Assembly (NCBI GenBank): GCA_017399305.1
Contig: JAFQDK010000049.1
Location: 1-33,182, forward strand
Direction of reading: 5' to 3'
DNA: 33,182 bases
Source: Clostridia bacterium
GTDB taxonomy: Bacteria > Bacillota > Clostridia > Oscillospirales > CAG-272
Made by a program: the position numbers and the translations under genes. Shown one piece after another: positions 32,814-33,182 of the stretch (positions are counted from its first letter, which is position 1; each line of letters starts with the position of its first letter). Below the pieces are notes generated by a model. It was not told where the DNA came from. It made no database searches and worked only from the letters and a program-made list of their open reading frames with translations.

Positions 32814-32842
32814 TTGACTTTTAAGCTAAGTTTGTATATAAT
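32814..32842 (+). promoter_or_regulatory. Strong sigma-A promoter upstream of tRNA-Pro and the tRNA-like element
   Basis: TTGACT (32814-32819), 17-nt spacer, TATAAT (32837-32842). Predicted transcription start is about 32849. There is no terminator with a T-run between it and tRNA-Pro at 33107, so a leader of about 258 nt carrying the tRNA-like element is expected. Confidence 0.8.
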
Positions 32843-32880
32843 ATAAAAGCGCACTTGATTTGGTCGCACAATTTGATACA

Positions 32881-33078
32881 GCTATCGGGATGTAGCGCAG
32901 CTCACCGCGCGCCTGCTTTGGGCTTTGAGCACGAGCACTGCCTGTGGCAGATAAAGCGAGTGCGAAAAGGCGTAGCGGTCAAAATTGTGTGAGCATATGC
33001 GAGCGTACAATTTTGGGCACCGCAAGATGGCGGTGACCGCAGGGAGCCGAGGATGTCGCGGCGACTATCCTGCTATTA
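32881..33078 (+). repeat. Degenerate tRNA-Pro-like element split by a structured insert
   Basis: Positions 32881-32922 align without gaps to 33102-33143 of the genuine tRNA-Pro region, with 5 differences in 42, all in the D loop. The D stem (GCGC/GCGC) and the anticodon-arm start (CCTGCTTTGGG) are kept. Positions 33042-33078 align to the tRNA 3' part (GGGAGC, a 2-nt insertion, AGGATGTCGC, then CCTG and TATT). The T loop and the 3' acceptor end are changed, so it cannot be a functional tRNA. Between the halves lie about 119 nt inserted in the anticodon loop. I cannot decide between a tRNA-derived repeat, a decayed tRNA with an insertion, and a leader RNA. Confidence 0.7.
32922..33071 (+). ncRNA. 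Candidate structured RNA with three-way junction
   Basis: Pairings read directly from sequence: GCTTT 32922-32926 with AAAGC 32953-32957 enclosing the hairpin CTGCC-TGT-GGCAG (32938-32950). Then P1 is GCGGT 32975-32979 with 33036-33040, P2 is CAAAATTGT 32980-32988 with 33007-33015, and P3 is CACCGC 33018-33023 with 33030-33035. P1-P3 form a junction with only two unpaired bases. A further hairpin (AGGATGTCG 33050-33058 with 33062-33071, one bulge) covers the tRNA-3'-like half. It probably lies on the tRNA-Pro transcript. No known RNA family was recognised. Confidence 0.5.
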
Positions 33079-33106
33079 AACAAACATAAAAATTTAATAT
33101 TGCTAT

Positions 33107-33182
33107 CGGGATGTAGCGCAGTTGGTAGCGCGCCTGCTTTGGGAGCAGGATGTCGCAGGTTCAAATCCTGTCATTCCGACCA
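33107..33182 (+). tRNA. tRNA-Pro (anticodon UGG)
   Basis: A complete 76-nt cloverleaf: acceptor CGGGATG pairing with CATTCCG (one G-T), D stem GCGC/GCGC, anticodon stem CCTGC/GCAGG with loop TTTGGGA (anticodon TGG), T arm GCAGG-TTCAAAT-CCTGT, discriminator A and an encoded CCA ending exactly at the window edge. The gene is transcribed from the promoter at 32814-32842. Whether more tRNA genes follow cannot be seen. Confidence 0.97.

Follow-up and report, generated by a model that had tools for sequence, protein, structure and literature searches.

Introduction

A whole tRNA gene accompanied by a same-strand fragment of its end on the correct side is the signature of tyrosine-integrase islands, according to the part of the Islander description used here (PMC4383910). 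Islander rejects candidates that are shorter than 2 kb or have no integrase, and the islands in its database range from 2 to 200 kb (PMC4383910). At the other end of the size scale, RPE, Correia/NEMIS, ERIC, RUP and CIR are small non-autonomous bacterial repeats, and RPE has been reported in RNA genes, as far as the portion of the description consulted goes (PMC2229807). A further repeat of gut bacteria is Gut-1 RNA (Rfam RF01706), which is hairpin-rich and was first reported from the human gut, again according to the part of the source used (PMC2864571).

The window analysed here is an entire contig (C44) of 33,182 bases from a 64%-complete Clostridia genome in 57 contigs, and it stops at the last base of a tRNA-Pro gene. 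Directly upstream of that gene, the original prediction had noted a tRNA-Pro look-alike split in the anticodon loop, and had offered as explanations a tRNA-derived SINE-like repeat, insertion into a duplicated tRNA gene, or a tRNA-mimicking leader. In this study, we show that the finding is real and that the insert does not stand alone, since it belongs to a family of structured repeats that seek out tRNA genes. The feature is probably a mobile-element copy in a displaced tRNA-Pro end fragment, lying beside a regenerated intact tRNA-Pro.

Results

A Broken tRNA-Pro Copy Beside an Intact tRNA-Pro Gene

The features of the region are given below by position in the window.

32814..32842, + strand: promoter-like site TTGACT-17-TATAAT, 11/12 consensus matches (consensus match only)
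32881..32922, + strand: displaced tRNA-Pro 5' fragment (5 leader bases plus nt 1-37) with an anticodon-loop cut; 37/42 identity, shuffles at most 23
32921..33029 (model match 32921-33032), + strand: structured element; covariance model R1, 114 bits, E 9e-24
32923..32969, + strand: element domain 1; alignment A2, covariation counts
32923-32932 with 32960-32969: variable outer stem P1 of domain 1
32933-32934 with 32958-32959: G-A/A-G tandem of domain 1
32938-32942 with 32946-32950: hairpin P2 of domain 1
32975..33023, + strand: element domain 2 with stem P3 (GCGGT/ACCGC); alignment, covariation counts
32980-32988 with 33007-33015: stem P4 of domain 2
33016-33018: conserved bulged GGC of domain 2
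33042..33059, + strand: tRNA copy resumes briefly (about nt 37-50); scores 25 when aligned to tRNA nt 35-50 (row L075)
33061..33073, + strand: inverted (foldback) copy of the preceding tRNA piece; sequence
33107..33182, + strand: intact (regenerated) tRNA-Pro(TGG) with CCA; ARAGORN, Rfam 71.1 bits

Positions 32881-32922 are identical to 33102-33143 at 37 of 42 positions, whereas the best match of the same 42-mer to 1000 shuffles of the upstream region was 23/42. This stretch comprises the 5-base leader GCTAT and tRNA nt 1-37, the tRNA-Pro 5' fragment proper being 32886-32922, and the cut lies directly 3' of the anticodon TGG, in the loop in which the break had been placed. A 120-nt insert separates the fragment from resumed tRNA-like bases (GGGAGC..AGGATGTCGC, 33042-33059), which correspond to about tRNA nt 37-50. 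The T-arm and the acceptor 3' strand are absent, and the feature ends near 33073. Both ends had been described as matching the adjacent tRNA-Pro; the 5' match stands, and the 3' match is shorter than that description implied. We also observed that 33061-33073 repeats the preceding tRNA-like piece in inverted orientation (GCGAC-T-ATCCTGC), a foldback that had been missed. The distance from the fragment to the intact tRNA is 184 nt, and the total unit is about 0.2 kb.

ARAGORN and Rfam (gathering threshold) found the intact tRNA-Pro(TGG) as the sole tRNA in the window, and no Rfam match was obtained in 32840-33106 at E <= 5. The single-sequence fold of the region was unremarkable (z = -1.14); the predicted structure described below is established by comparison, not by energy.

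The Insert Belongs to a Repeat Family of Clostridia

A DNA search of 59 genomes including the window's own, of the kind that the original prediction had suggested, detected relatives of the insert itself, and not only of the tRNA, in 10/58 related genomes (G005, G009, G012, G015, G019, G037, G042, G045, G046 and G056). An alignment of ten copies had a two-domain fold and long invariant stretches in common, and covariance model R1 was built from ten copies, with the window copy among them. The model search, likewise suggested beforehand, gave matches in 102/295 sampled genomes of the order, representing 54/149 genera (E <= 1e-4), in 48/341 genomes of the class (E <= 1e-5) and in 5/398 genomes of the phylum (E <= 1e-5), three of the last within the window's order and two outside its class; the window's own genome is counted among the positive genomes at all three levels. 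Several or tandem copies were frequent in genomes of the order. The window's own genome has one copy only by R1, with relatives plentiful elsewhere, so that the insert is not the single copy without relatives that had been named in advance as counting against the idea.

A pattern scan of named genomes, selected by the element's 3' half, returned at least 117 stretches; the matches listed are records of Clostridia from gut and rumen, most of them MAGs under the label Clostridia, Oscillospiraceae or Ruminococcaceae. Viral contigs were the source of 5 element stretches, and the phage collection searched contained no element match. In the plasmid collection, one record matched, an 861-kb replicon of the isolate Vescimonas fastidiosa MM35, at 14 places, the best of which was confirmed by the model (85.5 bits). 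Full-text literature searches, whose coverage left out most subscription journals, found no description of the element.

No Rfam family matches the element, and Rfam gave no match on it in six more loci either (E <= 0.1). A fragment of a group I or II intron was considered as an identity for the element and was not supported, since the window and the six loci gave no Rfam match. A SINE-like tRNA-derived element was also rejected, because there is no constant tRNA head and Rfam gave no tRNA match in 32840-33106; what recurs is the insert, which does not resemble a tRNA, and the tRNA pieces that flank it vary and match the adjoining tRNA. By contrast, the idea of compact folded DNA inserted into a duplicated tRNA piece was borne out, related Clostridia carrying relatives of the insert at many places. 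We regard it as rather probable that the family consists of mobile DNA elements of Clostridia that are short (~110-113 nt), non-coding, structured and non-autonomous.

An assembly chimera at the contig end, which had been raised in advance as a possible artefact, is very improbable for the window. The genome is a fragmented MAG and the contig stops at the tRNA's last base, as a chimera might; however, the same kind of arrangement occurs in many independent assemblies, including the single-contig G140, in which an element follows an intact tRNA-Asn at a distance of 67 nt (L290), and an apparent decayed remnant is present at the orthologous site of G005 (see below). For the whole family the chimera idea is untenable, an assembly effect being ruled out by G140 together with the Vescimonas fastidiosa isolate replicon.

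Fold and Ends of the Element

The proposed fold was evaluated in an alignment of 118 distinct copies, which was fitted to the model, so that its pairing numbers lean towards the model. In that alignment, 94.1% of the stem cells of the 28 proposed pairs were paired, double-sided changes were found at 24/28 pairs, and double-change cells numbered 637 as compared with 203 +/- 11.5 in shuffles. When stem partners were slid by one to three columns, pairing fell below 50%. In the unfitted ten-sequence alignment, 11/25 pairs already had double changes. The outermost part of the domain 1 stem is the least regular (~78% paired) and variable in sequence, and it adjoins a CGA/GAG tandem that is conserved, as is the three-base bulge in the strong stem that makes up domain 2. 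The original prediction had not expected simple decay to leave such a feature, and indeed the insert is not decay: the structured element of which it is a copy is conserved, and its base changes are strongly compensatory.

The element begins with a conserved RG and ends with CCGCAA plus four bases, the first two bases possibly being part of the tRNA fragment. The ends examined are neither an inverted repeat nor TA, and visual inspection of a subset of the copies revealed no short target duplication. A helix closing off the element was only weakly above chance (25/151 versus 8.9%). In 159 copies, the first base of the element co-varies with the fourth base after CCGCAA (G/G 123, A/T 25), and these co-varying bases are as a rule not complementary. 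As a separate observation, the P2 loop of the element at L208:6534-6695 contains another, different repeat, an instance of hairpins within hairpins.

We then consider whether the fold is one of RNA or DNA. A functional structured RNA transcribed with the tRNA, whether a processing leader, a regulator or a tRNA decoy, would have the strong structure conservation in its favour; against it, G.U usage is lower in the element (1.7%) than in tRNAs (4.3% and 9.9%). The ratio of G.T to A.C mismatches was 27:13 in well-paired element stem positions versus 79:9 in the acceptor and T stems of 101 tRNAs encoded at the same loci (p = 0.004). Because RNA under selection should tolerate G.U and not A.C, the element is more like folded DNA than a tRNA is, although RNA-level selection may also act, since G.T still exceeds A.C in the element stems (p = 0.04).

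Placement of Copies Beside Intact tRNA Genes

Placement was analysed in a set of 175 copies in 150 loci. Note that 28 of the 30 order-search loci L070-L099 are in this set (L071 and L087 were omitted as repeats of other copies), and that copies in L010-L037 are outside it. An intact tRNA gene lay within 120 nt of 75/175 copies, 73 on the same strand and 2 on the opposite strand, with 100 copies not near; random placement in the same loci (200 trials) gave a mean of 10.7 and a maximum of 19 near-tRNA copies. Within 450 nt, the number was 97/175 (94 same strand, 3 opposite). Thus the copies near tRNA genes are almost always in the tRNA's own orientation, and the 73/75 on the tRNA strand are a second point in favour of a functional RNA.

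Both flanks of each copy were aligned to the neighbouring tRNA, each flank being clipped at the intact gene, with a score cut-off of >= 20; this is a safer count than a flank BLAST, whose downstream window can reach the intact tRNA. Among 55 copies of the upstream type, the 5' flank scored >= 20 in 45, of which 39 end exactly at the element and 37 begin at tRNA nt 1. The upstream cut points were nt 18 in most Ser, 22 in Leu, 20-23 or 37 in Pro and 20 in Asn. Among 42 copies of the downstream type, the 3' flank scored >= 20 in 31, of which 23 reach to within 3 nt of the tRNA 3' end, and an inverted tRNA piece precedes the element in 29/42. Flanks with tRNA fragments represent seven isotypes (Ser, Pro, Met, Leu, Trp, Asn and Lys), cut in the D-loop, the anticodon arm or the variable/T-arm region. 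As a loose rule, cuts near the 5' end go with upstream fragments and cuts near the 3' end with downstream fragments, with L150, L197, L182 and L221 as exceptions.

We compared leaders and trailers among cases pre-selected at 85% identity, of which 28 were upstream and 19 downstream. Past the start of the tRNA, leader identity had a median of 8.5 nt (<=10 nt in 18/28, >=16 nt in 10/28), and trailer identity a median of 3 nt (<=5 nt in 17/19, 23 and 60 nt in the other two), the median of random comparisons being 0. Fragments were identical to the gene in 20/28 upstream cases, and their last 20 nt were so in 14/19 downstream cases. Tandem duplication followed by decay was accordingly rejected as the whole story, given the short leader and trailer identities (<=10 nt in 18/28 and <=5 nt in 17/19) and the mostly identical fragments. 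However, 10 upstream and 2 downstream cases do fit plain duplication, and the leader duplicated over >=16 nt in 10/28 upstream cases, as plain duplication would give, counts against our best reading.

Empty Sites, Polarity and Inheritance

A ruvC neighbour marks the tRNA-Pro locus in three same-genus genomes (G002, G004 and G005). In G002 and G004, a single intact tRNA-Pro lies directly behind a promoter-like sequence (TTGACTTTT..TATATAAT), which constitutes an empty site. In the window, a like promoter precedes the broken half, and a consensus scan found no other + strand promoter-like site between 32814..32842 and the intact tRNA; the site at 32814..32842 is, judging from its sequence and position, probably the promoter that originally served tRNA-Pro and that now precedes the broken half. 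In G005, a broken half is followed by nine bases resembling the element end (GCACCGCAA), a second tRNA-Pro half with a different insert, and the intact gene, an arrangement that looks like a decayed version of the window's. As judged from these orthologous loci, the split state is the derived one, because G002 and G004 have a single intact gene behind the promoter and G005 has the apparent decayed version. For a functional RNA, the location of the window element between the tRNA and the sole promoter-like site is a further point in favour, whereas the absence of the element at the orthologous tRNA-Pro in two of three same-genus genomes, and its decay in the third, speak against it.

The fragment may predate the element, because element-free partial tRNA copies also occur. 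Specifically, partial copies were found in 17/130 downstream and 13/135 upstream flanks without the element, as compared with 39/53 downstream and 42/48 upstream flanks bearing it, in a biased set of 183 distinct tRNA genes in which the element was recognised by a regular expression as a proxy. The tRNA-Trp locus is a single gene in G004, a bare inverted and direct T-arm palindrome in G002, and has partial copies with other inserts in G000 and G003, indicating that fragments can exist without the element.

The tRNA-Trp locus is in line with a two-step history, in which hairpin-primed template switching makes a partial foldback (inverted plus direct) tRNA copy beside the original and the element lodges there later, as in REPs. 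We consider this a substantial possibility, somewhat short of even. In addition to the single, element-free and otherwise filled states of the tRNA-Trp locus, it gains from the inverted tRNA copies that precede so many downstream-type copies, and from two of these (L098 and L102) in which the inverted arm was seen by eye to span the insertion point without the element. On the other hand, the window's inverted copy does not span the insertion point, and fragments start or stop at the mature tRNA end, abut the element exactly and have recurrent tRNA positions; random template switching does not predict such ends.

With regard to movement, 91.7% identical elements are present in tRNA-Leu (L129) and tRNA-Pro (L147) pieces of different genomes, and the comparison of this pair supports movement between targets. 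With target classes assigned copy by copy, nearest neighbours were of the same class in 38/83 cases, as compared with a mean of 12.0 and a maximum of 20 after shuffling. Part of the distribution is thus due to inheritance, and many copies may be inherited rather than newly inserted.

Other partial copies were also observed. The window's own genome has them beside five more tRNA genes (L043 Trp, L046 Asn, L047 Val, L053 Glu and L064 Ser), with other inserts and without the window's element, the terminator being duplicated in Trp and Ser. Downstream of tRNA-Ser(TGA) in L010 is a tandem array whose unit consists of the tRNA-Ser 3' end, a terminator and hairpins.

Copies Outside tRNA Fragments

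No tRNA-like flank was detected by BLAST in 65/175 copies, an upper bound as L095, L167 and L191 among them abut tRNA pieces; controls were positive in 5/175. Since these copies have no detected tRNA-like flank, tRNA targeting is a preference and not a rule. Some copies lie antisense in 5S rRNA copies: L113 has an intact 5S gene plus a second partial match below the gathering score, and L136 has a partial 5S match at the element (both by Rfam). Judged by eye, L097 sits in the T-arm of an antisense tRNA-Gly, and L126 and L172 occupy terminator-like hairpins; at L164 the site is a REP-like palindrome, next to which an unfilled copy of the palindrome is present. Of the ten matches in G098, the eight examined are near-identical and located in REP-like palindromes as far as their flanks reach, which also speaks for movement, and G215 has three identical copies in another palindrome. 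The hairpin is the common denominator of the insertion sites.

Copies on both the upstream and the downstream side of tRNAs, in antisense tRNA and 5S pieces and in REPs argue against a functional RNA transcribed with the tRNA, which on all the evidence we judge quite unlikely. In the same way, the tRNA-mimicking leader that had been suggested is unlikely as a general function, other copies being in 5S rRNA copies, REP-like palindromes and an antisense tRNA arm.

Search for an Enzyme

IS200/IS605 ends and folded attC-type sites have hairpin ends and insert into single-stranded hairpins, with no short target duplication. Both would work like the element, but the element lacks an association with the Y1 transposase. 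Over 295 genomes, the numbers with both, the element only, Y1 only and neither were 36/66/59/134 (odds ratio 1.24, p = 0.43), and an examination of 30 Y1 loci for shared ends gave one weak hit (E 0.039). With no Y1 association and no shared ends beyond that hit, an IS200/IS605-derived element was not supported. The reverse transcriptase domain RVT_1 had no association either over the 295 genomes (24/78/55/138, odds ratio 0.77, p = 0.41), and IS110 had a negative one (7/95/44/149, odds ratio 0.25, p = 6e-4; the overlap of 7 was counted by hand). Clustering of neighbour genes (924 ORFs, of which the 30 largest clusters were judged by eye) identified no helper enzyme; Pfam assigned two of these clusters, one to a serine recombinase and the other to a tyrosine-integrase-like protein, each in 3/150 loci. 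One ORF of the latter cluster, which occurs in three loci, is at L199:4018-5193 (minus strand), near an element beside tRNA-Leu.

The tyrosine-integrase-like ORF in 3/150 loci, e.g. L199, bears on another explanation, namely that a larger tyrosine-integrase island entered tRNA-Pro, restored the gene and was then deleted to 0.2 kb, the feature being its scar. The geometry is identical to the published island signature, and the anticodon loop is among the crossover sites, in the part of the Islander description used (PMC4383910); in addition, longer and different split tRNA-Pro inserts are present in the lineage (L014, L028, L029, L084 and L090). Nevertheless, we regard an island scar as unlikely. 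There is no room for an integrase between the window's fragment and the tRNA, in many genomes the same conserved, covarying element adjoins fragments from seven isotypes, it occurs also in REPs and 5S copies, and D-loop cuts (nt 18-23) are outside the three crossover sites named in that part of the description (PMC4383910).

Those five loci contain a second insert family upstream of tRNA-Pro, which interrupts tRNA-Pro at the same point of the anticodon loop (CTTTGGG|AGCGTG...), and most of these loci have TTTGACCACA-like motifs. This second family is possibly the scar of an integrase-type island.

Discussion

Our preferred reading remains that of a mobile-element copy in a displaced tRNA-Pro end fragment beside a regenerated tRNA-Pro. 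In kind, the element comes closest to the small repeats of bacteria, and in geometry to integrative islands, but it lacks a defining property of each. Like the islands in the portion of the Islander description consulted, it is associated with a whole tRNA gene and a same-orientation displaced end fragment on the correct side, with anticodon- and T-arm cuts (PMC4383910), as found in the window, in 45/55 upstream-type and in 31/42 downstream-type copies. Unlike them, the unit is about 0.2 kb instead of more than 2 kb, and no integrase lies between fragment and tRNA (PMC4383910), the space being 184 nt in the window and at most 450 nt in tRNA-linked copies. Frequent 5' fragments, D-loop cuts, conserved structured junction DNA and inserts in non-tRNA hairpins also set the element apart from the islands as described in that portion.

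Similarly, in the excerpt of the repeat literature used, RPE, Correia/NEMIS, ERIC, RUP and CIR resemble the element in being <200 bp, protein-free, stably folding and dispersed, and CIR also in its two stem-loop arms (PMC2229807). The element is thus MITE-like in that it is <200 bp, non-coding, dispersed and strongly folded, but it differs from these repeats, compared by their description, in having no terminal inverted repeats, TA ends or visible short target duplication, in preferring tRNA arms and in leaving an intact tRNA beside it (PMC2229807).

As for Gut-1, its match at L012 is a different stretch from the element, and it was not found in the window's own genome. The Gut-1 'sRNA' at L012:1809-1881 lies directly behind a tRNA-Ser terminator in an array of small hairpins, and a Gut-1 match below the gathering score was observed at L182:5089-5170. 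Gut-1 may be a hairpin repeat instead of a regulator.

With respect to mechanism, the fold and the sites of insertion suggest that the element would be recognised as a folded hairpin, more likely of DNA than of RNA, and would enter the loops of other hairpins, i.e., tRNA arms, 5S rRNA and REP-like palindromes, being moved in trans by a host or helper enzyme. In tRNA genes, only insertions that carry or regenerate the missing tRNA end would survive, and the visible product would be a fragment, the element, a short spacer and a whole tRNA. In the window, transcription of the intact tRNA would start at the old promoter and pass through the broken half and then the element, and normal tRNA 5' processing would release the tRNA. 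A more far-reaching version of this reading, which we put forward tentatively, is that such elements are nano-islands: integrase-free folded single strands of ~113 nt that use a trans-acting recombinase, carry or rebuild the end of their target, and have spread through Clostridia while sparing essential tRNAs. The D-, anticodon- and T-arm loops of tRNA genes, together with other hairpins, would be the targets of these nano-islands, which is an equally speculative part of the proposal.

tRNA genes are classic docking sites of integrative elements. Very small insertions in them would escape the filters of Islander, because candidates <2 kb or without an integrase are discarded, according to the part of its description used here (PMC4383910). 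If a folded single strand moves and rebuilds its target, the family would show how little DNA a harmless tRNA insertion needs. If this is true, the element would offer a natural means of probing hairpin-specific recombination in Clostridia of the gut, and it may explain some of the split or partial tRNA genes that annotation must sort out.
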